Shown piece after piece: positions 880 through 38,127 of a DNA stretch of 42,334 nucleotides. The stretch lies in IMG/VR virus record IMGVR_UViG_3300045950_000008, positions 1 to 42,334 of that record, one strand, 5' to 3'. A program made the translations under genes and the position numbers. Position 1 is the stretch's first letter; each line of letters opens with the position of its first letter. The notes beneath the pieces were generated by a model. That model searched no databases. It was not told the origin of the DNA and was given only the letters and a program-made list of their open reading frames with translations. Source of the stretch: a virus.

Positions 880-936
880 TCGAAGAAAGAACAATAAAAG
901 AAAGAAAACTCATCTCTCAATGTGTTTTCTCTTGTT

Positions 937-1003
937 ATAAACCCCGAATGATTAGTGAGGGGTTTATCCAGCGAAGGTGTGCTTCTATCATCCGCACACC
1001 TTC
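937..1003 (-). ncRNA. Candidate small RNA: two-hairpin unit, copy A
   Basis: Read leftward from the promoter at 1009-1037, the transcript would begin at about 1002-1003 with hairpin 1 (GAAGGTGTGC/GCACACCTTC, 10 perfect pairs, 11-nt loop, 973-1003). A 5-nt linker follows, then hairpin 2 (9 pairs, 937-945 with 959-967, 13-nt loop). The same order of promoter core, +1 hairpin, GC(A/T)G linker and second hairpin is found at 29155-29255, with different but still fully paired stems. No ORF of useful length lies inside. This copy lacks a U-tract after hairpin 2, so its 3' end is uncertain. It is antisense to the late arm. Confidence 0.5.
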
Positions 1004-1008
1004 ATAAA

Positions 1009-1037
1009 TATATACGTCAAAACTGCAAACTGTTCAG
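1009..1037 (-). promoter_or_regulatory. Leftward sigma70-type promoter with conserved spacer
   Basis: On the minus strand the -35 is CTGAAC (1032-1037), followed by a 17-bp spacer and the -10 TATATA (1009-1014). The whole 33-nt core, spacer included, matches the rightward promoter at 29155-29189 at 30 of 33 positions. Such conservation exceeds that expected of independent sigma70 promoters. Confidence 0.6.
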
Positions 1038-1099: not shown

Positions 1100-1130
1100 G
1101 CTTCCTGTATAACCCAACTTTTCTATAACT

Positions 1131-1148
1131 ACCCATAATTTATGTGGT
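1131..1148. promoter_or_regulatory. Operator-like inverted repeat, degenerate copy
   Basis: ACCCAT at 1131-1136 is followed after AATTT by ATGTGGT, an imperfect match to ATGGGT. It is the fourth member of the ACCCAT-N(3-5)-ATGGGT family (perfect copies at 29111, 36963 and 37248). It overlaps the extended -10 at 1145-1153, so a bound protein could block or modulate the capsid promoter. Confidence 0.4.
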
Positions 1149-6913: not shown

Positions 6914-8491
6914 ATGCCGCAAGAGAAAGAAAAGACTCAAACTCCAGTTTGGTATGATGTTACCCCTTCCCCCAAGACGGATTACCAAAAGATGTTGGAA
7001 GAGGGTAGAATCAACCCTCTTGTAGAGCGACAGGAAGAGCTTGTTCCTGAACCTACTCCTTCACTCGTCAAACCCCCACCGGTAGAACCTCCTCCTCTTG
7101 ATTGGGTAAGGAATAATCCTCTTTGGGGGCAAATCTATCAACATAAAGCTCAAGCTGCTCTAACGGCAATCCAGAGAGAATATGATCTAAAGGTCAGACA
7201 ACCCTTGGCCGAATCACAACAGCTTTTAGCCAAGGCACAGGAAGAGTATACAACCAAGAAGGCAGCAATGGAGGGGAGTCTTCGGTATTGGCCGGAGATA
7301 TCCACTTGGCCATTGTCTGAACCTCCTCTATTGTCTTCCCGACCACGGTTGGCAAGGGAGTTTACGGAAGCAAATGAAGCTCTCAATGCAGCGACTCAAG
7401 CACACGTCGCTCTAACCGGCTCTCTCAAGCCAATGATCCAACGGTATGAGGCGAATGTTCCCTTGTTGGAACAAGAGCTTCTCAAACCTCCCTCAGAGTG
7501 GTCTCCACAAGCTTTTGACTTTCTATCTAAAGCTGATCCTACGATCAAGAACCTACAAAGACGAGCCGAGATGTATGAGGGTGAAGTCTTCTCTCAATAC
7601 TTTGGACAATCCCCTGTACAGGAGCAGATGAGAGAGATTGGGGGGGAGAGTTATGCTACAGATGCTGTTGTTTCTGCTTTGGGGAGTATTGGAGTCTTTG
7701 GAGCAGGGGAAGAAGAACTACGACAACAGTTTATCTCGCAGGATGTAACACGGTTGATGAACCAAGCAAAGACTAATAAGCGTCCTGTTGTAGACCAACA
7801 GGATGTTCATGCGCTTGTCCGTGAGTATGCTGCTCAATTCGGCTTTACTCCCGAGGAAGCTGATAATCCTTTGAGTTTACCTGACCCGTTCCGGTCTGCT
7901 ATAACTACCACGGAAGCAGAGATGGTCCGGTTACTGGAAAGTGAAGCGGGAGAATCAGCAGTTACCCCATTGAATGTTCTTCTCGTTCTCTTGGGTGGCT
8001 TGGTTGGTCAAGCCCAACAGGTAGCCGATGTTATCATGGCCCCTATTGAGAGTCAACGACAACGATTTGCCCAGATGCGGCAGGAGTTGGCCGAGCTACG
8101 GGCAAACCAAGCTAGAGCAGCTACTCAAATGGCAGCTACCAAGGAAGAGCGACGAGAACAAAGGAAGCAGATGTTCCTCCGTATGGCTCTGGATATGAGG
8201 GAGACCAATGCACGGTTGGAGGAAGCTAGGGCAGCTAGGACTCAAGAAGCTGCTATCGCGGGGTTGAGGCTTGCTGCTGAGAAAGCAGCTGAACATAATC
8301 GTCTAGCTTCTGCTGCTGCCAGACAAGGGTACATGACCGCAAAGGAAGCAGCGAATATGGCTAGAGATACCAACCGTTTGATCCAGAAGACACTTGTAGA
8401 CATCGCACAGATTGGCTCCGAAGCCGATAAGAAAGCTCTAAAAGATTTCCTAGAAGGACTCAAGAGACAGGTTCCCGGTGGGGGTGAGTAA
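6914..8491 (+). CDS. Putative internal virion protein with coiled coils, 525 aa
   Basis: The N-terminus is Pro-rich (about 10-65). Long Ala/Glu/Gln helices dominate about 75-165 and 370-520, the latter with heptad-like spacing and many Arg/Glu pairs. A hydrophobic stretch near 350-370 (VTPLNVLLVLLGGLVGQAQQ) could be a single membrane segment. It overlaps the next gene by one base (TAATG). The protein is probably the middle-sized ejection protein of the particle; an enzyme function is not visible. Confidence 0.5.
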   Translation: MPQEKEKTQTPVWYDVTPSPKTDYQKMLEEGRINPLVERQEELVPEPTPSLVKPPPVEPPPLDWVRNNPLWGQIYQHKAQAALTAIQREYDLKVRQPLAESQQLLAKAQEEYTTKKAAMEGSLRYWPEISTWPLSEPPLLSSRPRLAREFTEANEALNAATQAHVALTGSLKPMIQRYEANVPLLEQELLKPPSEWSPQAFDFLSKADPTIKNLQRRAEMYEGEVFSQYFGQSPVQEQMREIGGESYATDAVVSALGSIGVFGAGEEELRQQFISQDVTRLMNQAKTNKRPVVDQQDVHALVREYAAQFGFTPEEADNPLSLPDPFRSAITTTEAEMVRLLESEAGESAVTPLNVLLVLLGGLVGQAQQVADVIMAPIESQRQRFAQMRQELAELRANQARAATQMAATKEERREQRKQMFLRMALDMRETNARLEEARAARTQEAAIAGLRLAAEKAAEHNRLASAAARQGYMTAKEAANMARDTNRLIQKTLVDIAQIGSEADKKALKDFLEGLKRQVPGGGE

Positions 8492-11400
8492 TGCCTAACC
8501 CCCCTATCTACACCGATCCGGTTTCCGGTGCTGACGATAACCGGAGAGCCGAAGGTTTCTTCCGGGCTGCCGTCAATAAAGCTAAAGCACCTAAGCAACA
8601 GAGCCCTTACCGTCCTGTTTTCCCCAAAGTAGAGACACCACCTCCCCAACAGGGGGAACCTGAACGGGGGTTTGTTGGAGATCTCATACATGATTTTTGG
8701 GAGAACTTGGTGATGGGTATGACCCGTACAGTGGTGGGTACTGCTGTATGGGGTGGGAGGATGATTATTAGTCCCCTTACTGATGATAATGCAGTAGACC
8801 TTCTCTCTAGTGCACAAGACACCCTATCACAGATCCCGGGTGCTTTTGCTGAACACTATACAAAGGTCTTTGAAGATCCCCTTGAATATGCCCGGCGTAA
8901 CCCCATCTCCTTTGCTCTTGATGTCAGCATTGTCAATGGGTTTGTAGCCAAAGGGTTGAGTAGTGCTTCTCGTGCAGCAGCACTAGCTGGCAATGCGGGG
9001 AAGGCGGCTAGACTGGCACAGTCGGCTAAGATTCTAGAGGGACTACCTTTCAACCTAATTACTAAACCTGCCAAGTACGGGGGCAGGATAGCTATGGATG
9101 CTCTCTGGTCCAAGGTTGAGAAATCCCCACCACTTAGATGGTTGGGTAAGGACATCCAGATTACAGACCCCATTACAGGGGCTGTAGTGGATGAGAAGTG
9201 GGTACCCTTTACAACCCACTTGAAAGAGAAGCTCAAAGTAGGTATGGGTCTAGCCCTCCGTGACCCAGCCACTAAGAACATGATCCGGTATATAGCCCAC
9301 GTAGGACATGAGTCCAAAGATCTGAAAGAGTTTCTAACTGATTTTACCGGGGGTAAGTTTACTCCTGTATGGGAGGGGTATGGAGGGGGACAGGTTAGAC
9401 GAAAGATGTTTGGACTCCGAGCACCTAAAGACCTTACCGAGTATATGCTGACCTTCTCCAAGGCAGAGGCAAAGGAAATGGCTGAAGTCTTGATTATGCA
9501 GACCAAGAAAGTGCAGGACATCAAGAGCCCCTATGTAAGGTCTCAACTTCCTGTTCTCCAACGTATTGCGGAGAAGAGGGAAGTACAAGGTCTCAAGAGT
9601 GGGTTCCTCAATCAAGTGAGTGTGGGTAGGGGAAAGACCATTACCGGATTACAGTACAACAAGACGATTCAGGATTGGTTCAAGACCAAGTATGGGTTGA
9701 ATGATGACCAACTCATAGACTTCCTTAGGCATTCTGATGACCTAGGGGAGTTCCGTTGGCAAACTCCACCTACTGTCCCCGGTGCTAAACCAACCCGTAA
9801 CTCCCTTCCCATCCAAAACATGATGAGTGAATTGGACCGGTATATGGCAGCCGAGGGGTATGCTCGTACTTACATGCCCGTCCGGTATATGCCACAAAGT
9901 AAACTGTGGAGATTCATTGACTCGATAGACGAGAACAAACAAGCTCTATTTGGTAGACCCGCCCCGGGATTTCGTAAGCGTAAGGGGGGAGGGATTGAAC
10001 CGGAAGATGTAAACTGGGATCTCCGCTCTCTTCTCCCCCAAGCATTGATTGACTTCAAACAGGAACAGATTCTTTCCCGAACCTTTACTGATTTTGCCCT
10101 TACTCCGGTGGCGGAGGGGGGGTTGGGCGGACAATTGTTCAAAGAAGGCTCGAAGATAAACAATCTCACGGATGTCATCTTCCCTGCCGGACCTATAGGA
10201 CTTCTCCAAGATGCACAATTCCAAACAGTTCAACTGATGCGAGCAGCTATGGAGGAGGCAATCCGAGCGGGTAATCGGTCCCTTACATCTACTCTGTCGC
10301 AGGGAATTCAAACTGCTTCCTATCAAGCTCTCTCTCATCCCCAGATCTCCCAGCTGTATTGGCAGTTCCGTCAGGGAGCGGGAGGACTGCTCCGACAGGA
10401 TGAACTATTGGTCTTACCCAAGGCCGCTACCTACGAGTTTATGCGTACTCTTATCCCTGACTGGGGGCCTATCTGGAGGGGGTTCAACTCAATCAACGCA
10501 ATCATGAAGCCTTTGTGGTTAGGTCTTAGTCCTATGTACGCAGCCTCCAACTACATCGGTGGGGCGGCTATGTACTTCTTGGGAGGTGGTAAACCACAAG
10601 ATATCTTTATTGGGAGACAATTACTAACCAAGGGAGCCTTACCGGGACATATCAATGGAATGTATGCTTCCCACCTTGGTTTACTTGGTTATTCAAACTG
10701 GGTGGAGAAATGGCTTCCCCCAGTAGCTAAGTACCTCAAACTCTCCAACGTAGCTGATGTTCTATACCGAAATGGATTAGGGTCCACCTATGGTCGGTCT
10801 CTAGTGAAACGAATCAATACGATGGGTCTCAACTTTAGCCAGACTCTCAAAGACTTGTTCTCTAAAGACAAGTATGTAGATGCCAATGAGTACATGCGGT
10901 TCTTGGATGAACGGTGGGCTGCTGGCCGTAAGGCTGAAGTACAAGCCAGCCATCTAAAACAAGAAAGAGAATTGTGGCAAGACTCTTTGGACCGGGCATT
11001 GGGGAGACAGGGCTCGCTGGTCATGCGGAAACTCAATGTTGAGTCCAAACTCAATAGCCAAGTCAATTCCCTTCTCTCTACGAATATTTCCCTTACTCAT
11101 GCCCGGGATGCTGTCAAAGTATCAGATAAGGTATGGCGTCAAGTACAGATGTCTCCATTCCTCAATAAGAATGGGTGGGTTCTAAGACCGGGAGAGGCTA
11201 AGAGGTTGGAAGAGATCAGGGCGGATAAGTGGGTTGTTGAGAAGGGTAGGAGGGCTTCCAAACGTATGGAAGCTCTTAGTAAGGATATCGAGTCGGCTAA
11301 GGCTGCTGGTCCTAATGAGTATGTCCGTGATCCCATCATTGCCGAGTCCGCCGGTAAACTGGAAGATTGGCGACTGGGGGAGATTGAAACTAGGAAAGAC

Positions 11401-12969
11401 CTACTCCGTGAGTATGAAGCAGCGTTAGAACAACCTGATATTCCCGCTAATATACGTAAAGCTGTCAGAGCTAGGATTAGTAGGTTAGAACAACGGATTC
11501 ACAACGCTGAGGTCACTTACAATAAACTGATCCGGCAACACAATAAACTGGTTGAGACTTCCCCTAAAATTCTAGCCAAAGACTTTCTGAACTCTCCTGT
11601 AGTACAGAGACAGATCAATGTACTTGATTCCATCATTCAAACTGGGGATGCTGCTAAGGCCGCTTTGAAACAGAATCAGAGTCTGGATATGCACATGATG
11701 AAGCGGATCAAAAAGGGGAACGCTACTCCCACTGCCAAGATGGCAGTTATCGACGAGTTCCGGGGGGAGTGGGAAATTAGGACTAAACAACTCCAAGCTA
11801 CTAAAGACCAGTTAGATGGTCTCAAGAAGGATTATGAGAAGACGCTCAAATACTACAACTTCCTACAAGCGGGGGGAAAGAAGATTACCATCAAGGATGC
11901 TGTGGGTCGGGAGATTGAGGCTACTCCCCCCGATGTAGTCAAGCTTGCTACACAAGCAATACAGAAGTATGACCAAGAGATCTTGGCTGCTGAACAAGCA
12001 TCCACCACTGCCAAGTCCATCCCCGGTCCTGACTATCCCAAGATATCCAAGATGTTCAAAGAAGAGTATGAGAGGGCTGCTGAGTTCATCTTTGATTACA
12101 GTCAACACAGTCACTTTGAACGTAAATATGCCCAGATGATCTTCCCCTTTTGGGCATTCACCAGCCGGATGACTAAGTTTATGTTCCGTCTGGCTTTCTC
12201 CCCGGAGATGCCGGTTGGAGTTAGGGCTAGGGCCAAGATGTTGGCGGGTATGTCCACTTGGGCTATGGATGCCAAAGAGAACATGGAAGACCTCCCGTAC
12301 GATATGAGGGATTACTTCCCTATCGGTGTTGGAAACGGGTCTTTCATCTTTATGTCCGTCAAGGGGCTATCCCCCTTTGCTTCTAATTACATAGGGAAGC
12401 CGGGTAGCTGGGAGCAAGCTGTAGCTTCCCGCTTCCACCCGCTTATTGAACTTACTCTAGAGGCTACCAGTGGTCGATCTGTCTACCGGGGGAAGCTGAT
12501 TGACAGCCCATATACCTTCCCCGGGTTCAATGGGCGGGTTTATGAGTACGATAACATCAGCGGGAAGATCCGTGAGCAGCCCCTCCTCTCTATAAATAAC
12601 CTGCCTACAGCCGTGGAAGGTTTCCTCCGTAATCTTGCTCCTATTGATGTCAGTTTGAGTGCCCTTGAGGGGTCCATGAGTTGGGTGAATGGACAACCCC
12701 CACGCGGCCTGCCGGTAGACCCAGATGGGAAACCCGTCATGCCTACCTATATGTGGGGTCTATTCAAAGCCATGGGTGTACACACTTACGGTCAGGGACA
12801 ACTTGACCGGATCAAGTGGGCAAAGCAACAACAGCTCAAAGCCTATGAGAGGGCTATCCAACGTAAGATTGCTGTTCTCCGTAAGGTGGAACCGTGGAAT
12901 ACAGATGAGATCGATTTCTGGTCTAACGCTCTAACGGACTTTATGAGCGGGGAGATCGAGGGAGACTAA
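8491..12969 (+). CDS. Large internal virion protein, 1492 aa
   Basis: The largest gene of the genome. An N-terminal hydrophobic region (about 70-95, LVMGMTRTVVGTAVWGG) is followed by a globular part. A second hydrophobic region is near 675-710 (WLGLSPMYAASNYIGGAAMY). A long charged helical section (about 780-1190) has many coiled-coil-like runs, and a conserved-looking C-terminal region (about 1210-1400) carries aromatic motifs such as FPFWAFTSRMTKFMF. Size, helix content and position match the giant ejection proteins of podoviruses that help build a channel through the envelope. I see no transglycosylase or peptidase catalytic motif, so a role in wall penetration is inference only. The ORF is intact over 4.5 kb. 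Confidence 0.6.
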   Translation: MPNPPIYTDPVSGADDNRRAEGFFRAAVNKAKAPKQQSPYRPVFPKVETPPPQQGEPERGFVGDLIHDFWENLVMGMTRTVVGTAVWGGRMIISPLTDDNAVDLLSSAQDTLSQIPGAFAEHYTKVFEDPLEYARRNPISFALDVSIVNGFVAKGLSSASRAAALAGNAGKAARLAQSAKILEGLPFNLITKPAKYGGRIAMDALWSKVEKSPPLRWLGKDIQITDPITGAVVDEKWVPFTTHLKEKLKVGMGLALRDPATKNMIRYIAHVGHESKDLKEFLTDFTGGKFTPVWEGYGGGQVRRKMFGLRAPKDLTEYMLTFSKAEAKEMAEVLIMQTKKVQDIKSPYVRSQLPVLQRIAEKREVQGLKSGFLNQVSVGRGKTITGLQYNKTIQDWFKTKYGLNDDQLIDFLRHSDDLGEFRWQTPPTVPGAKPTRNSLPIQNMMSELDRYMAAEGYARTYMPVRYMPQSKLWRFIDSIDENKQALFGRPAPGFRKRKGGGIEPEDVNWDLRSLLPQALIDFKQEQILSRTFTDFALTPVAEGGLGGQLFKEGSKINNLTDVIFPAGPIGLLQDAQFQTVQLMRAAMEEAIRAGNRSLTSTLSQGIQTASYQALSHPQISQLYWQFRQGAGGLLRQDELLVLPKAATYEFMRTLIPDWGPIWRGFNSINAIMKPLWLGLSPMYAASNYIGGAAMYFLGGGKPQDIFIGRQLLTKGALPGHINGMYASHLGLLGYSNWVEKWLPPVAKYLKLSNVADVLYRNGLGSTYGRSLVKRINTMGLNFSQTLKDLFSKDKYVDANEYMRFLDERWAAGRKAEVQASHLKQERELWQDSLDRALGRQGSLVMRKLNVESKLNSQVNSLLSTNISLTHARDAVKVSDKVWRQVQMSPFLNKNGWVLRPGEAKRLEEIRADKWVVEKGRRASKRMEALSKDIESAKAAGPNEYVRDPIIAESAGKLEDWRLGEIETRKDLLREYEAALEQPDIPANIRKAVRARISRLEQRIHNAEVTYNKLIRQHNKLVETSPKILAKDFLNSPVVQRQINVLDSIIQTGDAAKAALKQNQSLDMHMMKRIKKGNATPTAKMAVIDEFRGEWEIRTKQLQATKDQLDGLKKDYEKTLKYYNFLQAGGKKITIKDAVGREIEATPPDVVKLATQAIQKYDQEILAAEQASTTAKSIPGPDYPKISKMFKEEYERAAEFIFDYSQHSHFERKYAQMIFPFWAFTSRMTKFMFRLAFSPEMPVGVRARAKMLAGMSTWAMDAKENMEDLPYDMRDYFPIGVGNGSFIFMSVKGLSPFASNYIGKPGSWEQAVASRFHPLIELTLEATSGRSVYRGKLIDSPYTFPGFNGRVYEYDNISGKIREQPLLSINNLPTAVEGFLRNLAPIDVSLSALEGSMSWVNGQPPRGLPVDPDGKPVMPTYMWGLFKAMGVHTYGQGQLDRIKWAKQQQLKAYERAIQRKIAVLRKVEPWNTDEIDFWSNALTDFMSGEIEGD

Positions 12970-27129: not shown

Positions 27130-27206
27130 TGGTTAGGGTGGTGGGATTCGAACCCACAACCTCCACGTTCCAAGCGTGGCGCGCTTCCTAATTGCGCTAC
27201 ACCCTA
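27130..27206 (-). tRNA. tRNA-Pro(UGG)
   Basis: A cloverleaf is clear on the minus strand: acceptor TAGGGTG/CACCCTA, D arm GCGC/GCGC, anticodon arm CCACG-CTTGGAA-CGTGG with anticodon TGG, 5-nt variable loop, and T arm GTGGG-TTCGAAT-CCCAC. The discriminator is A and the CCA end is encoded (27130-27132). It lies between the SSB and nuclease genes, so it would be cut out of the early transcript. Confidence 0.93.
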
Positions 27207-28080: not shown

Positions 28081-29030
28081 GCCTTTACTCCTGCAAATTC
28101 AAGAGCCGTATTCCAAGCTGCCCTTTTCGTCATGGCAGCCTGACCCACTGTGGTGGACACAAACCGGGAGGAGAGCTTACGGTAGTTACGGGCATGATCT
28201 TCAAACTCAGCCACCGCATTGTAAGCCCCCCAAAGGGTACCCCTTGCAGAGACCAGATTAGTCCCTCGACCCACCTCAAAGAGGTAGGCCACCTGCTTTC
28301 TTGTGGCCTCACGGACTAGGTCATTGTCCTTCCTGTCAGGGTAGACATACTCAAGGTACTCACCCAACCTTGATCCAACCCGTGTACAGGCAAGGGTATT
28401 CGCAATGGTACTGAACTTCCCGTAGAACTCATCCGCCAGACCAAGCACTCGCTTGGCCTCATCCACTCGGGCTTGAAGAGCCCCACGGTGACGGATGGCA
28501 ATCCCCATACTGCCTGCCCCTTCAATGGCAGCAGTCAAGGTGTTCTGGCAGACCACCCTCACCGGAGTATAGAACATACGGAGGGCTAGTGTACCATCGT
28601 AACTGTTGACGAGCAAGAGGAACTTCTCAACTGTATCCTCTCCGGGGAGAATAACCGGATCTTTGAGCTTAGCAGTGAGCCAGATCCTTTCCCCCTTACA
28701 GAGTGTTCCCCCAGTATGGTAGATGGCCCGGCCCGAGCCGATCACATCATCCATGAACTCGAAGGTCTCCCTCGGTTGGAAGACCTGATAGGTGGACCGG
28801 ACAGCAGCAAGGAAGGCTCTTGTGTCACTACGGGTAAGCCCCTTCCACCCCTCGATATCCTTACCCTCCTGCTGGATTGGGCGGGATTCGACTGTGAATG
28901 GAGCAGCCAAAGCTAGGGCCTGCTCCACAGTAATGGCTCCCTCAATGGACGTACCTAGTCCATGCCAAGGAGCCTCCCCCCGGTAGAACATCTCCGTTCT
29001 ACCACCTACCTCGGACAGGTTGTGCGCCAT
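28077..29030 (-). CDS. DUF932 / TIGR03299 phage-plasmid protein, 317 aa
   Basis: Recognised by the N-terminal pattern WHGLGTSIEGAITVEQALALA (in two parts) and the central VNSYDGTLALRMFYTPVRVVCQNTLTA (in two parts, about 145-170), with a helical C-terminal half. The family is widespread in phages and plasmids, usually near SSB or recombination genes; its biochemical function is not established. AGGAGG precedes the ATG. A dedicated leftward promoter (29072-29100) with a hairpin at its predicted +1 lies upstream. Confidence 0.85.
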   Translation of the reverse strand: MAHNLSEVGGRTEMFYRGEAPWHGLGTSIEGAITVEQALALAAPFTVESRPIQQEGKDIEGWKGLTRSDTRAFLAAVRSTYQVFQPRETFEFMDDVIGSGRAIYHTGGTLCKGERIWLTAKLKDPVILPGEDTVEKFLLLVNSYDGTLALRMFYTPVRVVCQNTLTAAIEGAGSMGIAIRHRGALQARVDEAKRVLGLADEFYGKFSTIANTLACTRVGSRLGEYLEYVYPDRKDNDLVREATRKQVAYLFEVGRGTNLVSARGTLWGAYNAVAEFEDHARNYRKLSSRFVSTTVGQAAMTKRAAWNTALEFAGVKA

Positions 29031-29047
29031 AGAACCTCCTAAAATTT

Positions 29048-29065
29048 TCGGGCATTCCCGCCCGA
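29048..29065 (-). other. Hairpin at the predicted 5' end of the DUF932 transcript
   Basis: TCGGGC (29048-29053) and GCCCGA (29060-29065) pair around a six-base loop. It starts six bases after the -10 box, so the mRNA would begin with this hairpin and continue into the AGGAGG site. This copies the +1 hairpin placement of the two small-RNA units and could protect the 5' end. Confidence 0.5.
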
Positions 29066-29071
29066 TAAAAT

Positions 29072-29100
29072 CTTATGACCGAAAATTGAACTTTGTTCAA
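29072..29100 (-). promoter_or_regulatory. Leftward promoter for the DUF932-SSB-polymerase operon
   Basis: On the minus strand the -35 is TTGAAC (29095-29100), followed by a 17-bp spacer and the -10 CATAAG (29072-29077). The -35 is part of the palindrome TTGAACTTTGTTCAA (29086-29100), which may be an operator. Confidence 0.5.
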
Positions 29101-29110
29101 AGTTATTTCA

Positions 29111-29127
29111 ACCCATGAATTATGGGT
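29111..29127. promoter_or_regulatory. Operator-like inverted repeat ACCCAT-N5-ATGGGT
   Basis: Perfect 6-bp half sites with a 5-bp centre (GAATT), midway between the divergent promoters at 29072-29100 and 29155-29183. Same motif at 36963-36977 and 37248-37264, degenerate at 1131. A dimeric regulator bound here could control both promoters. Confidence 0.5.
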
Positions 29128-29128
29128 A

Positions 29129-29150
29129 AAATTTCAAATTTTTGAAATTT
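29129..29150. repeat. 22-bp AT-rich inverted repeat
   Basis: AAATTTCAAA (29129-29138) and TTTGAAATTT (29141-29150) are perfect complements around TT, ending five bases before the rightward -35. The half site TTTGAAA recurs at 36915-36934. It may be an UP-like element or a second operator type. Confidence 0.5.
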
Positions 29151-29154
29151 CACC

Positions 29155-29183
29155 TTGAACAGTTTGCGATTTTGACGTATAAA
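29155..29183 (+). promoter_or_regulatory. Rightward sigma70-type promoter with conserved spacer
   Basis: -35 TTGAAC (29155-29160), 17-bp spacer, -10 TATAAA (29178-29183). The core matches the leftward promoter at 1009-1037 at 30 of 33 positions, including most of the spacer. It points against the early arm and no gene follows, only the two hairpins. Confidence 0.65.
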
Positions 29184-29189
29184 TTTATA

Positions 29190-29255
29190 GATGTGCGCGG
29201 TTGGTGTGCGCGCACATCGCAGCAAGAAACTCCCTTCAGGAGTTTCTTCTTTTCT
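29190..29255 (+). ncRNA. Candidate small RNA: two-hairpin unit, copy B
   Basis: The predicted +1 falls at about 29190. Hairpin 1 is GATGTGCGCG/CGCGCACATC (29190-29199 with 29209-29218, 10 pairs, 9-nt loop). After a short linker, hairpin 2 (29224-29233 with 29239-29248, 10 pairs, 5-nt loop) is followed by a T-rich run (29247-29255) and is a strong intrinsic terminator. The product would be an RNA of about 65 nt with no ORF. Compared with copy A, stem 1 differs at several pairs yet stays fully paired, which is covariation. Confidence 0.6.
29224..29255 (+). terminator. Intrinsic terminator of unit B
   Basis: AAGAAACTCC and GGAGTTTCTT pair around CTTCA, followed by TTCTTTTCT. It ends the short rightward transcript before it can run into the early genes. 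Confidence 0.75.
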
Positions 29256-29397
29256 GGTTTCTTCTTTTGAGTATAGAAATAGAAAGGTAACCGGGGGGAG
29301 TAGGGGGGTGGAACCCCCCACCTTATGAAGGGTAAGGATTCCCAAAGGGAATAGGTGGTAAACCTGCCAAGATGGCGGGTTCTTGGCGGGTTGAAAG

Positions 29398-29544
29398 TTA
29401 CTTACTGTTATTAGACTTACCCAAAGCATCTACTTGGGCGTAGAAAGCCCGTACCCATTGGGGGAGCTTCTTACTCTCTGCAGCTGACCTGATTACATCT
29501 TCGTGGATACTTTCCTTCTTAGTCTTACTTCGTTTCTTCTTCAT
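29398..29544 (-). CDS. Small basic protein, 48 aa
   Basis: ATG 29544 overlaps the stop of the previous gene (ATGA) and the frame ends TAA at 29398-29400. The N-terminus is very basic (MKKKRSKTKK), followed by a short amphipathic helix with an aromatic patch (QWVRAFYAQVDAL). The coupling and clean composition make it a likely gene despite its size. It is the last gene before the 29031-29397 control region. Function unknown. Confidence 0.6.
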   Translation of the reverse strand: MKKKRSKTKKESIHEDVIRSAAESKKLPQWVRAFYAQVDALGKSNNSK

Positions 29545-30828: not shown

Positions 30829-31190
30829 GGCTTCACCCATTGTGGTCTATCGGATTCTAGGAGAATACGCTCCATGATTCTCTCTGCGCGGCATGCCGGA
30901 CAGAACAAGCAGTAGTTTGTGCCCTTTTTCACCCGATGGACTCCGATACTGTCCCTCGCAATCGCCGCTGCCTCTTCCAGTCCCACCCGCCTCCCCTCTT
31001 CGCGGGCCTCAGCGATCAGCCGTTCCAGATCCTTGTCTCCCCACGGATCAAGAGCGCATCCACCAGACGGCTCCCAACAGGTTCTGTTGCAGGAGTGATT
31101 CGGCGCGGTCGGACTCGAACCGACAGCCGGGCGCTTATAAAGCGCCTGCTCTGCCCGTTGAGCTACGCGCCGTCGTTGTTTCTTTTTCAT
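30825..31190 (-). CDS. Zinc-binding helical protein; reading frame runs through a tRNA gene
   Basis: The C-terminal 60 residues are well behaved: AREEGRRVGLEEAAAIARD followed by CLFCPACRAE (CxxCxxC zinc site) and a conserved-looking KP end. The only ATG, at 31190, overlaps the upstream stop (ATGA) but would make residues 7-30 the translation of tRNA-Ile. No ATG or GTG lies between the tRNA and the helix; GTG at about codon 70 or a CTG start are alternatives. I give the full open frame and regard the real start as unresolved. Confidence 0.45.
   Translation of the reverse strand: MKKKQRRRVAQRAEQALYKRPAVGSSPTAPNHSCNRTCWEPSGGCALDPWGDKDLERLIAEAREEGRRVGLEEAAAIARDSIGVHRVKKGTNYCLFCPACRAERIMERILLESDRPQWVKP
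31100..31172 (-). tRNA. tRNA-Ile(UAU)
   Basis: Minus-strand cloverleaf: acceptor CGGCGCG/CGCGCCG, D arm GCTC/GAGC, anticodon arm GGCGC-TTTATAA-GCGCC with anticodon TAT, 5-nt variable loop, T arm GTCGG-TTCGAGT-CCGAC, discriminator A. CCA is not encoded, unlike the tRNA-Pro. UAU reads AUA, a codon most bacteria decode with a lysidine-modified CAU tRNA. Confidence 0.92.
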
Positions 31191-31934: not shown

Positions 31935-32773
31935 GGCTTCACCTCCTCCACTTCAGGACTTATCTTACTCCGCAAGCAAGCATTATACACCGGGCAATAC
32001 GCCTTGCTGCATAGCGGATTGCTCGGGGTTGTGTAAGGGAAGATACCCTTACGGATAGCTGATACTGCCTCCCCGAATACAGTGAGAGCCCAATCCCAAT
32101 CTTGTTGGGTTCGCTTGGCTCTCTCCAGCTTCACTGATCCTCTCTTACTCTTGACGAAAGTAAGGAAGGCTACATCCTCCTTTTCAAATGCCCATGAATA
32201 GAGAGATAACTGAAGGGAAGTAACTGTATCTCTTCCCGTCTTAGCCCTCTTCCCTGTCTTGTAGTCAAGGACTTCCCACGGAGTAACTAAATCCACCCTT
32301 CCCACAAGGGTATAAGGTTCTCCGTTCGAGTCCTTTGCTTCTCTCTTGAAAGACTCTTCCACCTTTACCGGGGGGAACATCTTGGCATAGTCCTTCAAGT
32401 AAATGGAGTACCATCGTTCTGCTCGTTCTGTCATGAAATCGAGGGAGTCTTCCCACACCAGTCCTGACCCTCTCAATTCCTGAGCCTGTCGTTCGGCCCG
32501 TTCGGATCGTTCTGTTAGGCTCGTTCTGAAGATGGCGGCCATGTCGGTAGCCGAGAGGAGGGTACCTTCCAGTACCCTCCTGTTGTACGCTTCGAGTCCG
32601 TCGTGACAGGCGGACCCTTCCAGTAGGGAAGGGGATACTACTCTAGGGATTTTATCCCTGTAAAGTAGTTGGAACCGCTTCCCACACTCTAGCCATTGAT
32701 CTAGGCTAGAGAAGTCGAAGGTAGATAGGTCTACCTCAAATGGCATTTGATCTACTTGTGGCATTGTGGACAC
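31931..32773 (-). CDS. Cas4/RecB-like PD-(D/E)xK exonuclease, 280 aa
   Basis: The nuclease core shows GRVDLVTPWEVLDYKTGK (about 160-178; the GxxD and D-Y-K elements) and LQLSLYSWAF (about 188-197; the Q-x3-Y motif IV). A Cys near the N-terminus (QWLECGKRF, about 30) and C-terminal LCSKAYCPVYNAC (about 255-268) match the four Fe-S ligands of Cas4/AddB-type nucleases. Such enzymes resect DNA ends in recombination. The start is GTG 32773, with ATG 32764 possible; it overlaps the previous gene by 22 bp. No CRISPR array is present. Confidence 0.8.
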   Translation of the reverse strand: MSTMPQVDQMPFEVDLSTFDFSSLDQWLECGKRFQLLYRDKIPRVVSPSLLEGSACHDGLEAYNRRVLEGTLLSATDMAAIFRTSLTERSERAERQAQELRGSGLVWEDSLDFMTERAERWYSIYLKDYAKMFPPVKVEESFKREAKDSNGEPYTLVGRVDLVTPWEVLDYKTGKRAKTGRDTVTSLQLSLYSWAFEKEDVAFLTFVKSKRGSVKLERAKRTQQDWDWALTVFGEAVSAIRKGIFPYTTPSNPLCSKAYCPVYNACLRSKISPEVEEVKP

Positions 32774-32997
32774 ACCTTTCCTTCATTCTTTCGGAAGTCA
32801 AGGATAACTTCCGAAGCTGTCTTCCCCATCCCCGAGACATTGCGCTTGTGGCAGTATACCTGAATATACTGATACTTGTTGGCTTCCTGTAGGTACAGCT
32901 TGAAACTGTAATCACCTACCCCCAGTTCTCTAGGAGTTCTCTCGATCAAAGAGACAAACTCATCGTAAAGGAAACCCACCCTGTGAAGCAATCTCAC
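32752..32997 (-). CDS. Hypothetical protein with CPQC end, 81 aa
   Basis: GTG 32997 overlaps the upstream stop (GTGA). Mixed alpha/beta with many aromatic residues (YSFKLYLQEANKYQYIQVYC) and the C-terminal sequence VCPQCHK, a single CxxC pair. Unknown; position suggests coupling with the nuclease. Confidence 0.55.
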   Translation of the reverse strand: MRLLHRVGFLYDEFVSLIERTPRELGVGDYSFKLYLQEANKYQYIQVYCHKRNVSGMGKTASEVILDFRKNEGKVCPQCHK

Positions 32998-33278
32998 TTT
33001 ACCCCCTGTAAATCTATTGTTTCAAACCCTTGATCGTTCAAGAGTTTGCGGAAATACCGATGGTCCACAATTTCCCGTTCCCCTACTAACCATGTACGGG
33101 ATGGGTAGTGGATTCTCCCTATGACCCCGTTCTTATAGGTCATAGAAACATCCCCCTTCTCTCTCGCCATAGATGCTAGGTATTGGGCCACATAGATGGC
33201 TTCGTTGATATCCTCGTACTCAAGGATATCAACGTGAACCCCTCCCTTGAGGACTAGTCTACATGTTACTTTGTACAT
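32994..33278 (-). CDS. Hypothetical protein, 94 aa
   Basis: ATG 33278 lies 12 bp inside the end of the previous gene. Begins with a strand (YKVTCRLVLKGGVHVDILEY), then a helix (INEAIYVAQYLASMA) and strands, an alpha/beta sandwich. No motif is recognised. Confidence 0.55.
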   Translation of the reverse strand: MYKVTCRLVLKGGVHVDILEYEDINEAIYVAQYLASMAREKGDVSMTYKNGVIGRIHYPSRTWLVGEREIVDHRYFRKLLNDQGFETIDLQGVK

Positions 33279-33745
33279 GTTACCTCCGTAATGGTCTTTC
33301 CTTGCATATCTGTCACCAAGACAGATTCTTGCTTGAATTCCCTGCGGATATCCTCCGCAAGGCCAGTGATTAGTTCCAACGGTTCCCCTAGGATTGTGAG
33401 CTCATAGGAGGGCTCCCATTCCCCTCCCCAATAGCCAATAAGGTTTGCCATAGAAGCCCCATTGATACCGTATCTCACGAAGATACGGTGTAACCGAGAG
33501 TGTACATTTCTCTCGGTTACTTCCCCATGCTTGGTAGAGAAGTAAATCTTCATACTTCCTCCCTCGAAACCTGCTCGATGGGAGCAGGGAATACGGCGTA
33601 GGGCCTCCCTCAGTCTCTCCACCTCCTCCAGAAGCATGGGGAGGGCGCGACGAGCTTCAGAAATACACGCCATATCCTCTCTCGTCACACTTTTGCAGAG
33701 ATTCCGCCAGAGTTCAAGGTCCGAAGGGGTTGGACGATTAGTCAT
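33266..33745 (-). CDS. Possible fusion of an Ea22-like N-terminus and a second early protein, 159 aa
   Basis: Residues 1-64 (DLELWRNLCKSV, ARRALPMLLEEVERL, RRIPCSHRAGFEG) are a shortened version of the 137-aa protein at 31521. At residue 65 a new Met begins MKIYFSTKHGEVTERN, preceded by GAGGGAGGAAGT, an excellent ribosome binding site, so 33266-33553 may also be made as a separate 95-aa protein. The two parts are in frame without a stop. A 20-bp identical stretch (33560-33579 and 31599-31618) lies exactly at the junction. Function unknown. Confidence 0.6.
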   Translation of the reverse strand: MTNRPTPSDLELWRNLCKSVTREDMACISEARRALPMLLEEVERLREALRRIPCSHRAGFEGGSMKIYFSTKHGEVTERNVHSRLHRIFVRYGINGASMANLIGYWGGEWEPSYELTILGEPLELITGLAEDIRREFKQESVLVTDMQGKTITEVTCTK

Positions 33746-33981
33746 ACTTCTTCCTCCCCCCTCGCCAAACAGTACTCACACTTCCCATCCTCTTTGATCT
33801 TATGGAGGATGTTTACGTCCTCAAATACTGTCCCACACACATCACAAGCGGGAGCATAGCAATCCCACTCCCCTTCTACCGGGTGTAAGTCTATCTGTGA
33901 CATTCCCTTGGGGACACACCCCCTACAATAATATCCCCCTTCCTTGACATTGACCAGACCCCACGAAATATGTACATTCAC
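33742..33981 (-). CDS. Zinc-ribbon-like protein, 79 aa
   Basis: Three Cys pairs are visible: CRGC (about 19-22), CDVCG (about 46-50) and CEYC (about 68-71), enough for one or two zinc sites in a rubredoxin-like small protein. ATGA overlaps at both ends. Unknown function. Confidence 0.6.
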   Translation of the reverse strand: MNVHISWGLVNVKEGGYYCRGCVPKGMSQIDLHPVEGEWDCYAPACDVCGTVFEDVNILHKIKEDGKCEYCLARGEEEV

Positions 33982-34268
33982 TCTTCACCCCTTCTGAAAC
34001 GTGAGACAGTCTCTTTCACGAGACTATCCCATAGATACTTGACGCTACTGGGAGACCCTACCTCACGGTAGGAACTACCCACCAGTAGCTCTTCCGCTTC
34101 TTTCATTACTCCCCTCTCTTCTGCTACCTTCCGTAGCAGAGTGATTGCCCGGTTCCCATCGAACCGGGCTTCATTGTCCACTACGGTAGGGAGCTTAGCT
34201 AACCCCCTACTGGCAGCCCATAGGAGTTTCTCTCTATCGAGCCACTGCCGGATCTGTTGGCGGTTCAT
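33978..34268 (-). CDS. Helical protein, 96 aa
   Basis: All helical; N-terminal NRQQIRQWLDREKLLWAASR followed by GNRAITLLRKVAEERGVMKEAEELL. A helix-turn-helix is conceivable in the first 60 residues but I cannot show it. Coupled by ATGA to the 55-aa gene upstream. Confidence 0.55.
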   Translation of the reverse strand: MNRQQIRQWLDREKLLWAASRGLAKLPTVVDNEARFDGNRAITLLRKVAEERGVMKEAEELLVGSSYREVGSPSSVKYLWDSLVKETVSRFRRGEE

Positions 34269-34432
34269 GCTTCCCCCACTATATCGAAGTACGTGTAGGG
34301 GATATTAGTGTTCATCCCCCGCAGGATATCTACCAATTCCCCCCATCGTGGACAGTTCTCAGGGGTGAGTCGTATAGACTCTTCCCCCTGAGAGAACACT
34401 ATTTCATCGTTATCGAAATAGATATGAATCAT
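34265..34432 (-). CDS. Small acidic protein, 55 aa
   Basis: ATG 34432 has GGGAGGGT just upstream and overlaps the end of the amidotransferase gene by 23 bp; TGA at 34265-34267 overlaps the next ATG. The protein begins MIHIYFDNDEIVFSQGEES and ends in a hydrophobic helix and strand. The acidic, short product next to the amidotransferase could be a partner or substrate; this is speculative. Confidence 0.6.
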   Translation of the reverse strand: MIHIYFDNDEIVFSQGEESIRLTPENCPRWGELVDILRGMNTNIPYTYFDIVGEA

Positions 34433-35069
34433 ACCCTCCCCATGAAATAGGTCTGGGTAGAATAGGTTCTACCCATCTCGTATTCTCCCTTGATAGGACC
34501 GTCCCATCAAGGTCTAGACCAAGTATTCCAGTAAACTTGGACCATCCCCTCTCTGCCCGAGGAGACTCGCTAGCTGCTGCTAGTAATCTCCCCCCATTCT
34601 CTAGTATCTCAATCTGTTTGCCCGCCAGAATGTATATAGTCTTCCCGTAACCATATACGAAGGAATTACCCAAGAGTAACTTTCGTACCTCTTGGATAGC
34701 TTCCTGTACCCCTAGACCACGGATACTGTCCCAGAGTACGGCAGTATCCGAGCGTGGGTCCCCCAACTCCCTCCCTACTGATACACACCCATTATGTATC
34801 AGCAAGGATCGCCCATTGTGGAATGGATGGCAATTGGACAGAGATGTACTCCCCGAGGTTCCCCATCGAGTATGGAACATACGTGGGAAGGGTACATGGG
34901 ATAGTACCCTCTCGAAGTATCGAGCATTGTGCTCGATACTCCTAAGTACCTCCCACTTCCCCCTATAACGCCATGCAATCCCGTTCCCATCTCCCCCCTG
35001 TTGCCTTTCTAGTACCTTCAACCACCCCTTCGGGTGAGTGTGTCCGAATGAGAGATACCACCTACACAC
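34410..35069 (-). CDS. Class II glutamine amidotransferase (Ntn hydrolase), 219 aa
   Basis: With GTG 35069 the product starts Met-Cys, giving the N-terminal nucleophile Cys required after Met removal; GGGAGG lies eight bases upstream. Further motifs of the fold are GDGNGIAW (about 32-39), FHTRWGTSG (about 65-73), NCHPF (about 78-82), LIHNG (about 88-92) and SDT (about 106-108). The enzyme would release ammonia from glutamine. It overlaps the amidoligase stop by one base (TAGTG), so the two are surely co-translated. A longer frame from a TTG would bury the Cys and is rejected. Confidence 0.82.
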   Translation of the reverse strand: MCRWYLSFGHTHPKGWLKVLERQQGGDGNGIAWRYRGKWEVLRSIEHNARYFERVLSHVPFPRMFHTRWGTSGSTSLSNCHPFHNGRSLLIHNGCVSVGRELGDPRSDTAVLWDSIRGLGVQEAIQEVRKLLLGNSFVYGYGKTIYILAGKQIEILENGGRLLAAASESPRAERGWSKFTGILGLDLDGTVLSRENTRWVEPILPRPISWGGYDSYLFR

Positions 35070-36385
35070 TAGACAACCCTCCCACAAAAATAACAGGTTC
35101 CCCCTGCAGTTCTCACGTGGAAGAACCTACGTGGGGAACATTCCCCCTCTGTGCATATGACCACATCATGCCGAGTGGTCCTCCTAGGGACCACATTGCA
35201 CATGGGCCTTCTCCTCCCGCTGTCCTCGTGTCTATATTCACGGGGTGTGTATCCCCCTACCCCGCAGCAGGTATCCTCTACTACCCGACTGATACCCGCA
35301 TCGTGATTGAACACCGTGAACTCCCCCGCGTGGTAGCAGTGACCACCCTCTACTATCCCCTCGAGAGGGTCACGGGGTTCTACTTTCTCACTGGGAGGCT
35401 CGGGGTTACCCGCCCCTATGGGAGGATATTCGGGAGCATCCACCCCCAAAGCCTCTGCTAGTAAGGGGGTAATCTTTGCCACAGTCCTATCTCCCCGTGA
35501 TAGGAAGAGTACCTCCGCCCCCTCGAACCAAGGGGTGTGGTACTTTTGGTGGGCATCGATGGGTTTTCCCCATCGAGTCTCCCCCTCGGAGGACAGTACC
35601 AGTATCCTCCGAGTATTCTCCACCACCTGGCGGAGAAAGACCCTCCCTAACCACTCCCAGTCAAGGGTGTTGATAGGTAAGTGGGGGGAGACACTGATCC
35701 ACCCCCACTGCTCCCTCATATCCCTCTTCCACACTTCGGGGGACAGCTTCATCCCCCATGTAGAGAGGGGGGATGAATAATCATCCTCCAACTTATTGGA
35801 GGACAATATGTCCTCCAAGAACTTGAAGGAATTGTAGGCCAGACGGGGGGACTGCAACCACGACGGCATCCCCCGTATCTCGATGCCATGATGGTTGGGT
35901 GCGGGGCTCCATTCAACATCCCGCACATCAAGGGGGTCACCGTACCTCGAATGGGTACGGCGTAGGGCTACTTGGCTTGCAGGCCAAGAGCCCCCGATGA
36001 ACTGGGGAAGAGCTGCTGCTAGAATCGTCTTGATCCTAGCAACAGGGTCGGAGCGGAATGCCACAGGCCATCCCTGTGGCACTCTGCCACGTGCATCATA
36101 TTCAATGTGCACGTGACCTCCCGCACTCCCCCTCTGGCTACCCAGAATAAAAGGGGAGGCATTGAGCCTAAAGTTAGGCTCAAGACCTAATAGACCGATA
36201 ACCCCTGCGAGGCGCACTAACGCCTCTTCAGGGGTCTTGCCGGGCGGGGGACGTAGCTCCCCCGTGCTTCCGTTTCCATCCACCCCTATGTAAGGGGAGA
36301 TGGATGAATAGAAATCTACCACGCTTCCACTCTCAAGGTGGATCGCGTGGAACTCGGGGTCACTTCCCCAAGACGTGAGTCTCAT
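35069..36385 (-). CDS. phiEco32-like amidoligase (GS-like COOH-NH2 ligase), 438 aa
   Basis: N-terminal GSDPEF (7-12), IGVDGNGSTGELRPPPG (about 33-49) and GGHVHIEYD (about 89-97) are hallmark segments of the phage amidoligase type 2 group in the glutamine synthetase superfamily, which join carboxyl and amino groups with ATP. The region to about 330 completes the ligase. The C-terminal 100 residues are separate, with CCGVG, CTEGEC and CYFCG cysteines that may bind zinc. ATGA joins it to the first early gene and TAGTG to the amidotransferase. Similar pairs are proposed to make peptide-like modifications of wall or protein; the substrate here is unknown. Confidence 0.78.
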   Translation of the reverse strand: MRLTSWGSDPEFHAIHLESGSVVDFYSSISPYIGVDGNGSTGELRPPPGKTPEEALVRLAGVIGLLGLEPNFRLNASPFILGSQRGSAGGHVHIEYDARGRVPQGWPVAFRSDPVARIKTILAAALPQFIGGSWPASQVALRRTHSRYGDPLDVRDVEWSPAPNHHGIEIRGMPSWLQSPRLAYNSFKFLEDILSSNKLEDDYSSPLSTWGMKLSPEVWKRDMREQWGWISVSPHLPINTLDWEWLGRVFLRQVVENTRRILVLSSEGETRWGKPIDAHQKYHTPWFEGAEVLFLSRGDRTVAKITPLLAEALGVDAPEYPPIGAGNPEPPSEKVEPRDPLEGIVEGGHCYHAGEFTVFNHDAGISRVVEDTCCGVGGYTPREYRHEDSGRRRPMCNVVPRRTTRHDVVICTEGECSPRRFFHVRTAGGTCYFCGRVV

Positions 36386-36615
36386 ACCCTGTCCCCCCTC
36401 TCTTCCTCCAGAGGAGCGATATCCTCCGGCTCCCCCTCAAACCAAATCTCACCGCCCGAGGCGGTGACCCTACCCACCCACTGGAGGAGGGCGGGGATAT
36501 CCCCCGCCACCCACCCCTCGAGTATGTACTCTTGGGTTGGGTCGTAGACTATGACCTCCAGCTTTCCCTCCCCCAACTCCGGGCGGGGAGGGGCGGAGAA
36601 AATTTCGAAGTTCAT
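36382..36615 (-). CDS. First gene of the early arm, acidic protein, 77 aa
   Basis: Preceded by AGGAGG at a good distance from ATG 36615. The protein is acidic, with a beta-strand pattern (KLEVIVYDPTQEYILEGWVA, GGEIWFEGEPEDI). Unknown. As the first gene it follows the leader with two terminator-like hairpins and is coupled to the amidoligase by ATGA, so it is likely part of that system or an early takeover protein. Confidence 0.6.
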   Translation of the reverse strand: MNFEIFSAPPRPELGEGKLEVIVYDPTQEYILEGWVAGDIPALLQWVGRVTASGGEIWFEGEPEDIAPLEEERGDRV

Positions 36616-36641
36616 GTTACCTCCTAAAGTATGTAGCTAAT

Positions 36642-36676
36642 AAAAAACCCCATGTACTCACAAGAATACATGGGGT
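36642..36676 (-). terminator. Terminator-like hairpin in the early leader, proximal
   Basis: On the minus strand ACCCCATGTA and TACATGGGGT (36647-36656 with 36667-36676) form ten perfect pairs, followed by T6. It lies only about 27 bp before the first early ATG, so it would block the arm unless bypassed. A second hairpin (36678-36685 with 36693-36700) stands directly ahead of it. Confidence 0.75.
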
Positions 36677-36677
36677 C

Positions 36678-36700
36678 TCCCGTACTGCTACCGTACGGGA
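36678..36700 (-). other. Hairpin ahead of the proximal terminator
   Basis: TCCCGTAC and GTACGGGA give eight pairs around a 7-nt loop, two bases from the terminator. It could be the control element of an attenuator. Confidence 0.5.
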
Positions 36701-36703
36701 ATG

Positions 36704-36734
36704 AAAAAAAACAGCGCGAACGCGCGCGCTGTTT
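36704..36734 (-). terminator. Terminator-like hairpin in the early leader, distal
   Basis: AAACAGCGCG/CGCGCTGTTT (36725-36734 with 36709-36718) pairs fully around six bases and, on the minus strand, is followed by a run of T (36704-36711). It lies about 25-50 bp downstream of the leftward promoter. Confidence 0.7.
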
Positions 36735-36757
36735 TCAATCCAATTTCGCATGCGCGA

Positions 36758-36914: not shown

Positions 36915-36944
36915 TTTGAAACACTTGTTTCAAACACTTGTTTG
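36915..36944. repeat. Inverted and tandem repeats with ACACTTGTTT
   Basis: TTTGAAACA-CT-TGTTTCAAA (36915-36934) is a perfect inverted repeat. It overlaps two tandem copies of AAACACTTGTTT (14-bp period, to 36944). The repeats abut the -35 of the rightward promoter. They may bind an origin or regulatory protein. Confidence 0.5.
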
Positions 36945-36971
36945 ACTTTTTTATCTCTATTTACCCATAAT
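36942..36971 (+). promoter_or_regulatory. Rightward promoter overlapping an operator
   Basis: -35 TTGACT (36942-36947), 18-bp spacer, -10 CATAAT (36966-36971). The -10 lies inside the ACCCAT...ATGGGT inverted repeat, so binding there would repress it. The leader to the first late gene would be about 470 nt. Confidence 0.45.
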
Positions 36972-36977
36972 ATGGGT
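36963..36977. promoter_or_regulatory. Operator-like inverted repeat ACCCAT-N3-ATGGGT
   Basis: Perfect half sites with a 3-bp centre, overlapping a -10 box. Third-largest intergenic region with the same motif (see 29111 and 37248). Confidence 0.5.
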
Positions 36978-37025
36978 AGAAAAAAAAACATCAGCATTTC
37001 AAGAAAAAACATCAAGGTGTTCAAG
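36978..37025. repeat. Two tandem repeats AAAAAACATCA-N5-TTCAAG
   Basis: The unit AAAAAACATCA followed by TTCAAG occurs twice, about 22-23 bp apart, at about 36983-37004 and 37005-37026. The spacing is two helical turns, as in protein-binding iterons. Confidence 0.45.
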
Positions 37026-37122: not shown

Positions 37123-37247
37123 AATCTAGGGGGAGGGGGGTACCTAGGGGGGTGGTCAGGGGTTTTACCTATTAGGCTCGTAATGCCTAGGGGAGGTACG
37201 GAAATTCTGGCCTTTTAGGGCCATCATTTCCATCCCCAATCTTAGGT

Positions 37248-37264
37248 ACCCATCTATTATGGGT
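37248..37264. promoter_or_regulatory. Operator-like inverted repeat ACCCAT-N5-ATGGGT, late side
   Basis: Perfect half sites with a 5-bp centre (CTATT), about 180 bp ahead of the first late gene. No clear promoter boxes are seen around it. Confidence 0.45.
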
Positions 37265-37446
37265 AACGGTAGGGAAGGGACTCCATACCTGTTCCTTCCC
37301 AACTCTCTCAAAGTGGTTCCACCGAGATACCATCTCCCAAAAGGGATGGGGGAAGGAACGGGCCTTTGGGCTATCTTTAGACTCTCCCATAACTCTCTCC
37401 GAACACCCCACTATAGTACAATGGAAATAAGCTTTAGGAGAAGAAC

Positions 37447-38127
37447 ATGAGAGCTTGGCTGCTTGGACTATTACTTCTGGCTGGGTGTTCCCTGTCGGGG
37501 GAATCTTACCACCCTTATGGGTCAGCCGACCAACATGATCCCGGGGGGAGTTTTATTGGACGGACACGGTCGGCTCTCTTGAGAGCCTATGGGGATGGAT
37601 TCAGTTGGGCGGGTACTGCCTTCCCTATCCGACAGGATATCGAGGGTACTCTCTATGCCACAGCTAAGCATTGTGTAGAAGACTCTTTGAATCGACCCTT
37701 CCAATTGATCCTAACCCAACATACGGGAGAAGGGTATCAATCTTTCCCAGCTACTGTTTACAAGAAACATACCACCAGAGATATAGCCATTCTGTTCGCC
37801 CCGGTACACACAGGGGATATTCTTTCAGTAGCCGGGTCTCCTCCTGAGTTCCCCCGGAGAGTAAAGTACGCAGGGTTTGTAATCAACCGAACGGAGATAC
37901 GGGTCTGTGAGGGAGAAGCTAAAGGGTTGGAGACTTATGACAATAAATTTGTCAAAGGACGAATTAGGGTTGTTGGATTCGTAGAACGAGGACTCTCCGG
38001 GTCTGCCGTCTGTGATGAGGGAACGGGACTCGTCCTTGGAATTCTTGTACGAGCCTATCTTGAGGGAAAGACGGGTTATACCTTTTGGGCAGAACCAGCT
38101 TGGGAATTGGTGGAGATGCTCCGATGA
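37447..38127 (+). CDS. Exported trypsin-like serine protease lipoprotein, 226 aa
   Basis: Signal peptide MRAWLLGLLLLAGCS with lipobox LAGC (Cys14) predicts export and lipid anchoring. The mature part has the chymotrypsin/HtrA-fold triad: His75 in TAKHC, Asp112 in TTRDIAIL, Ser184 in RGLSGSAV. Spacing (37 and 72 residues) is normal for the fold; the usual GxSGGP is GLSGSA. No PDZ domain follows. It is the first gene of the late arm with a possible TACAAT -10 at 37417-37422, and overlaps the next gene by ATGA. Being extracytoplasmic, it is not a capsid protease; a role in lysis, exclusion or cleavage of a host envelope protein is inferred. Confidence 0.8.
   Translation: MRAWLLGLLLLAGCSLSGESYHPYGSADQHDPGGSFIGRTRSALLRAYGDGFSWAGTAFPIRQDIEGTLYATAKHCVEDSLNRPFQLILTQHTGEGYQSFPATVYKKHTTRDIAILFAPVHTGDILSVAGSPPEFPRRVKYAGFVINRTEIRVCEGEAKGLETYDNKFVKGRIRVVGFVERGLSGSAVCDEGTGLVLGILVRAYLEGKTGYTFWAEPAWELVEMLR

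Follow-up and report, generated by a model that had tools for sequence, protein, structure and literature searches.

The window analysed here, i.e. the whole phage record of 42,334 bp, is that of a tailed phage; it carries 139-nt direct repeats at its ends, so the genome is probably complete. The capsid and tail genes (TerL at 39237, portal, capsid protein at 1877, tail) are read rightward from approximately 37.4 kb, past the ends of the record, as far as 18.5 kb, the replication genes (DUF932-like protein, DNA polymerase, DnaB, primase, exonuclease and RNA ligase) leftward from 29.0 to 18.5 kb, and the small early genes leftward from 36.6 to 29.5 kb. The rightward late block is headed by a trypsin-like peptidase with a lipoprotein-signal-like start (37447-38127, plus strand); the product of 33266-33745 (minus strand) has a weak similarity, below the curated cut-off (E=0.0027), to S-adenosylmethionine lyase, a protein type known to serve phages in counter-defence. 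Across IMG/VR, the named phages and the GTDB genomes no close relative was found: searches with the single DNA polymerase, capsid protein and TerL sequences returned 0 relatives, a polymerase profile search yielded 80 loci of 23-30% identity of which none showed genome-wide relatedness, and a TerL profile search yielded four loci with TerL as the sole common gene.

Two intergenic regions at the heads of opposed operons contain the elements under study, hereafter modules A and B (ends approximate in both). Module A (849-1211) lies in the gap between an ORF end at 798 and an ORF start at 1209 and fronts the rightward capsid operon; module B (29028-29292) is its inverted copy and fronts the leftward replication operon. 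The second, outward-facing arm of each module ends within the intergenic gap. A near-perfect 16-bp hairpin with a 4-nt loop is present at 844-879, shortly past the end of the portal-region ORF at 798.

Each module is centred on a promoter-like core of 33 bp (copy A: 1004-1036, minus strand; copy B: 29156-29188, plus strand) that spans from a -35-like hexamer at one end to the predicted transcription start at the other. The original prediction of two opposed cores with 30 identical nucleotides was borne out: 30/33 positions agree, with 0 such pairs expected by chance, and the A-versus-B differences occur in the hexamers at about the same rate as in the spacer, which contains the elements GTTTGC and TTTTGA 8 bp apart. 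The stretch GAACAGTTTGCNNTTTTGACGTATA, located at 1011-1035 (minus) and 29157-29181 (plus), recurs nowhere else in the whole genome with three or fewer mismatches (chance expectation 0.00, 100 shuffles); the next-best site matched 20/30 fixed positions of the core, in line with the shuffle range of 18-20. As a DNA pattern, the core gave 0 matches in IMG/VR, no convincing match in the named phages, and three unrelated single matches in the GTDB genomes, not above the chance number. A covariance model built from A and B, whose structure comprised hairpin 1 only and whose automatic alignment left the second hairpins out of register, detected no significant third copy in the genome; a possible degenerate promoter-plus-hairpin on the gene-facing side of B (29031-29100, minus strand; TTGAAC-17-CATAAG, hairpin CGGGCGGGAATGCCCG) reached E=3.7, which is not significant. 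Inspection by eye for a Xer/dif-like or loxP-like recombination site revealed no convincing arm symmetry.

Outward of the core, a perfect 10-bp hairpin is positioned at the predicted +1 of both copies (A: 973-1003, minus strand, loop of 11; B: 29190-29218, plus strand, loop of 9), and a second hairpin follows in each, separated by the GC(A/T)G linker, all as anticipated. In B, hairpin 2 (29224-29248, perfect 10 bp, loop of 5) resembles an intrinsic terminator and is succeeded by the U-rich tail CTTTTCTGGTTTCTTCTTTTGAG at 29249-29271. In A, the absence of a U-tract after hairpin 2 (937-967, perfect 9 bp, loop of 13) had been correctly noted; a third hairpin with a U-rich tail (880-931, minus strand; arms 903-913/920-930) does follow, however, and is homologous to the B terminator (score 40, shuffle mean 23, attained in 5/2000 shuffles), albeit with a weak stem. 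The true counterpart of B hairpin 2 may be A hairpin 3 rather than A hairpin 2, the latter being possibly extra with respect to B. Both U-rich tails lie on the outward side, and the folding z-scores are low (-4.8 for A, -5.6 for B).

The sequences outside the core had been described as different with the stems still paired. Paired changes do occur, but the similarity extends through the stems, the terminator and the U-rich tail, and also to the gene-facing side. An alignment of the stems by the letters they have in common yields 7 comparable pairs for hairpin 1, of which 6 are identical and 1 is altered in both partners, and 9 for hairpin 2, of which 7 are identical and 2 are altered in both partners. 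In total, 3/16 pairs changed in both partners and 0 are one-sided or broken, a small sample from two sequences; aligned by position instead, 7/10 pairs of hairpin 1 differ on both sides. The hairpin loops of A and B are unrelated. These stems have to be viewed against a genome exceptionally rich in perfect inverted repeats: it contains 35 perfect stems of at least 9 bp versus 0.67 expected from dinucleotide shuffles, and their density of 0.83 per kb is the top value of 76 phage sequences (median of the 75 others, 0.14). Most of the perfect stems are inside genes, most densely at 32500-36740, with perfect hairpins per kb about 5x as frequent in intergenic gaps as in the coding part by our own count. 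Hairpins alone are consequently weak evidence here, and a process that creates perfect inverted repeats could mimic paired stem changes.

The palindrome TACCCATAATTNATG is common to both gaps and lies on that side of the core which faces the genes. In module A it appears as the operator-like palindrome TACCCATAATTTATGTGGT (1130-1148, plus strand), with an extended -10 TGGTATAAT at 1145-1153 that belongs to the capsid operon promoter; in module B, the corresponding TACCCATAATTCATGGGTT (29110-29128, minus strand) is found on the replication operon side, with CATAAT as a possible -10. A weaker gene-facing resemblance extends as far as the two start codons (1209 and 29030); its score of 41 has a shuffle p of approximately 0.001 and is equalled in about 0.1-0.4% of real windows. 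Statistically, the resemblance of the outer module parts is modest, and it is the core and the palindrome that anchor the comparison firmly. According to the simplest account, an entire bidirectional operon-head region was duplicated in inverted orientation long ago, and modules A and B would be its copies, since diverged down to their functional parts; the unit is then better described as the outward half of such a duplicated region than as a stand-alone small-RNA gene. Of the candidate small-RNA family originally proposed, the two homologous promoter-plus-hairpin units hold, and the "family" amounts to two copies in one genome.

The operator-like palindrome TACCCATAATNNATGGGTA was observed in four intergenic regions heading operons (1130-1148, 29110-29128, 36962-36978 and 37247-37265), a distribution that suggests a phage regulator; at 36962 it takes a 17-bp form that overlaps the early rightward promoter at its -10. 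Tandem AAACACTTGTTT repeats at 36920-36950 adjoin the same early promoter and are possible regulator sites.

Promoter strength was estimated with a simple E. coli-type sigma-70 matrix, which serves as a guide only. In B the outward strand scored 9.3 (TTGAAC-17-TATAAA) versus 4.4 for the reverse strand; in A the values were 8.4 and 4.7, the former in the register TGAACA-18-TATATT, whereas the A core scores 4.1 in the register of B. Because each copy scores higher on the outward strand than on the reverse, an outward direction is plausible. Counting the two strands, 28 positions of the genome attain a score of 9.3; the strongest operon-heading promoters (early leftward, 36763, minus strand; early rightward, 36966, plus strand) lie far above the cores, and the outward arm rates as a moderate sigma-70 promoter. 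The hexamers do not account for the conservation of the spacer, from which we infer a factor, of phage or host, that reads the whole core.

In the interval 36786-36615 (minus strand), the genome's strongest promoter is succeeded by two intrinsic terminators with U8 and U6 tails that precede the first early gene, and no space is left for another promoter before it; this implies either regulated read-through or another terminated short RNA.

No gene follows either predicted start in the outward direction, the downstream genes being on the other strand. The absence of a coding sequence was confirmed: a coding reading of the outward strand was rejected, as A offers an 18-codon frame, B an unrelated leaderless frame, and neither anything else. 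Both units are opposite in direction to the arm in which they lie, as had been stated, but an antisense relation to a recognised gene would arise with read-through only: predicted RNAs that end at the U-rich tails stay intergenic, that of A stopping short of the ORF that ends at 798 and that of B short of the ORF that ends at 29541, and might overlap the 3' end of the portal mRNA or an early-gene read-through mRNA. The loops showed no significant pairing to the phage translation starts; one low full-length pairing score, of A with the start of ORF 4287, needs both stems to be opened, and no target among the phage start sites was convincing once structure was counted. In Rfam at gathering score only two tRNAs were recovered from the genome, tRNA-Pro(TGG) at 27130-27206 and tRNA-Ile(TAT) at 31100-31172 (both minus strand), and relaxed scans of both module loci gave sub-threshold matches only.

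Taken together, the sequence features are best accommodated by a duplicated divergent promoter that makes short terminated RNAs and is built like that of lambda OOP, a reading to which we assign about an even chance. Host RNA polymerase would start outward at approximately 1003 (A) and 29190 (B), probably assisted by a phage factor that recognises all 33 bp of the core; a hairpin would form immediately at the 5' end of the nascent RNA, and elongation would stop at the terminator hairpin and its U-rich tail. The presumed product, which is not translated, would measure roughly 60-80 nt in B and 75-120 nt in A. Outward firing, or the stable RNA left over, would most likely tune the adjoining operon promoter, as with lambda pO/OOP, either in cis by competition or supercoiling or in trans by base-pairing. 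The outward-RNA reading is favoured by the two inverted copies where 0 are expected, the start-site hairpins, the exclusively paired stem changes, the low folding energies, the better promoter on the outward strand, the terminator-like hairpin of B with its match in A hairpin 3, and the gene-facing homology; it is weakened by the presence of two copies only, the moderate promoter match, the hairpin-rich genome, the lack of a convincing target and the weak terminator stem of A. Distinctly improbable is the bolder proposition of a phage RNA element of a new class, in which a duplicated double-hairpin RNA, folded from the start site on, would be made outward from two opposed operon heads by means of a factor reading the whole core and would act on RNA polymerase or on both operons, so that capsid and replication expression are coupled.

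The foremost alternative, which we consider possible although on the unlikely side, is that of a DNA-level element: the core would be a regulator site for the operon it fronts, the hairpins would be (bidirectional) terminators or mRNA-end structures insulating neighbouring operons, and no functional small RNA would exist. The conservation of all 33 bp beyond the hexamers, the location of both cores ahead of an operon start, alongside the TACCCATAAT palindrome, and the U-rich sequence that flanks the GC core of B hairpin 2 on both sides would suit this explanation. Yet the core-to-palindrome distance is 27 bp in B and 93 bp in A, module A being about 65 bp longer there, which is awkward for an activator site; furthermore, hairpin 1 lacks a U-tract in the gene direction, and the better promoter is on the outward strand in both copies.

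Quite unlikely appears the explanation that symmetric A+T-rich promoters merely fire backwards, the outward RNA being early-terminated noise and the hairpins part of the genome-wide inverted-repeat excess. Bacterial bidirectional promoters are indeed common (PMC12825309, PMC10268837), the -10 region of B is the palindrome TATAAATTTATA, and the excess of perfect stems, mostly within genes, points in the same direction; such a by-product would however be at odds with the poor reverse-strand promoter scores in the core and with the joint retention of core, hairpin position and terminator in two copies that have otherwise diverged.

Very improbable is a polymerase-modifying element, either HK022 put-like or a Q-type promoter with a binding site in the spacer, which would let the polymerase pass terminators and transcribe a long way outward over the arm. 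HK022 does possess two similar two-hairpin RNAs, leftward and rightward (PMC9378689), Q sites are direct repeats between -35 and -10 (PMC6606751), the core spacer contains GTTTGC/TTTTGA, and in the early leader (36760-36615) two terminators precede the first gene, which demands a degree of read-through. In opposition to this, the outward path is antisense DNA with no operon and begins with a terminator, sequence similarity to the HK022 put pair is absent, no Q-like protein was recognised among the ORFs scanned, and the core is missing from the early leader. The promoter of a single-subunit phage RNA polymerase was not supported, as there are two copies only, both outward, where several sense-oriented copies would be expected; no match to this polymerase family occurred among the large ORFs, of which 6914-8491 and 8491-12969 are without assignment. 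Hardly probable at all is a replication origin or primer transcript that would prime or activate DNA synthesis beside the operon heads. Module B does front the replication operon; for lambda OOP a role as primer was put forward at one time, and replication is affected by transcription from pO (PMC12197685). The GC-skew, however, turns near 18.5 and 37 kb, at the gene-direction switches and not at A or B, iterons are absent, and the two copies are 28 kb apart.

If the outward RNAs of the divergent-promoter reading are real, one bidirectional control region, copied in inverted orientation, would govern two opposed operons, and paired stem changes would have preserved a structured RNA at its outer side. 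The modules would then offer a small, concrete test case, in a phage lineage without a characterised relative, for whether divergent phage promoters yield functional RNAs or noise.

In comparison with known systems, bacterial pseudo-symmetric bidirectional promoters have divergent starts in one A+T-rich region (PMC12825309, PMC10268837). Unlike these, the modules have an outward arm equipped with a conserved 33-bp core, a hairpin at the start site and a terminator of its own, and promoter scores on the reverse core strand are poor. Lambda pR' produces a short leader RNA with a terminator downstream. In the Q-dependent late promoter of phage 21, a conserved element is situated between -35 and -10 (PMC6606751). 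The modules are similar in their conserved spacer element, predicted short leader RNA and downstream terminator, but differ in lacking a clear -10-like pause site and an outward late operon; among the ORFs scanned no Q-like family match was obtained, many proteins being without any match. In HK022, the put RNAs act in cis as antiterminators through the zinc-binding domain of beta'. The phage's putL and putR are similar two-hairpin RNAs of approximately 70 nt that run in opposite directions, and putL comes immediately behind its promoter (PMC9378689). Two stem-loops, approximately 70 nt, placement right after the promoter and the opposed pair are shared; put, in contrast, resides inside early operons and suppresses termination, whereas here no operon lies outward and a terminator directly follows. 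Membership in the put family was not supported, since alignments to the inverted HK022 pair, taken as putL and putR by position and mutual similarity, were not above shuffles after four comparisons (best, A versus putL, p 0.05). Lambda OOP lies near the replication genes, opposite to its operon, and is antisense to cII. It is a short, terminated, untranslated RNA (PMC12197685). The modules resemble pO/OOP in a predicted short terminated RNA that would oppose an operon near replication genes, and a putative promoter, hairpins and a putative terminator were found for it. They differ from the single-copy OOP in their two inverted copies and in RNAs that would end in the gaps, overlapping intergenic sequence only and no recognised gene, and no sequence link to OOP is shown; the predicted anatomy is nevertheless closest to that of the lambda OOP-type RNAs.
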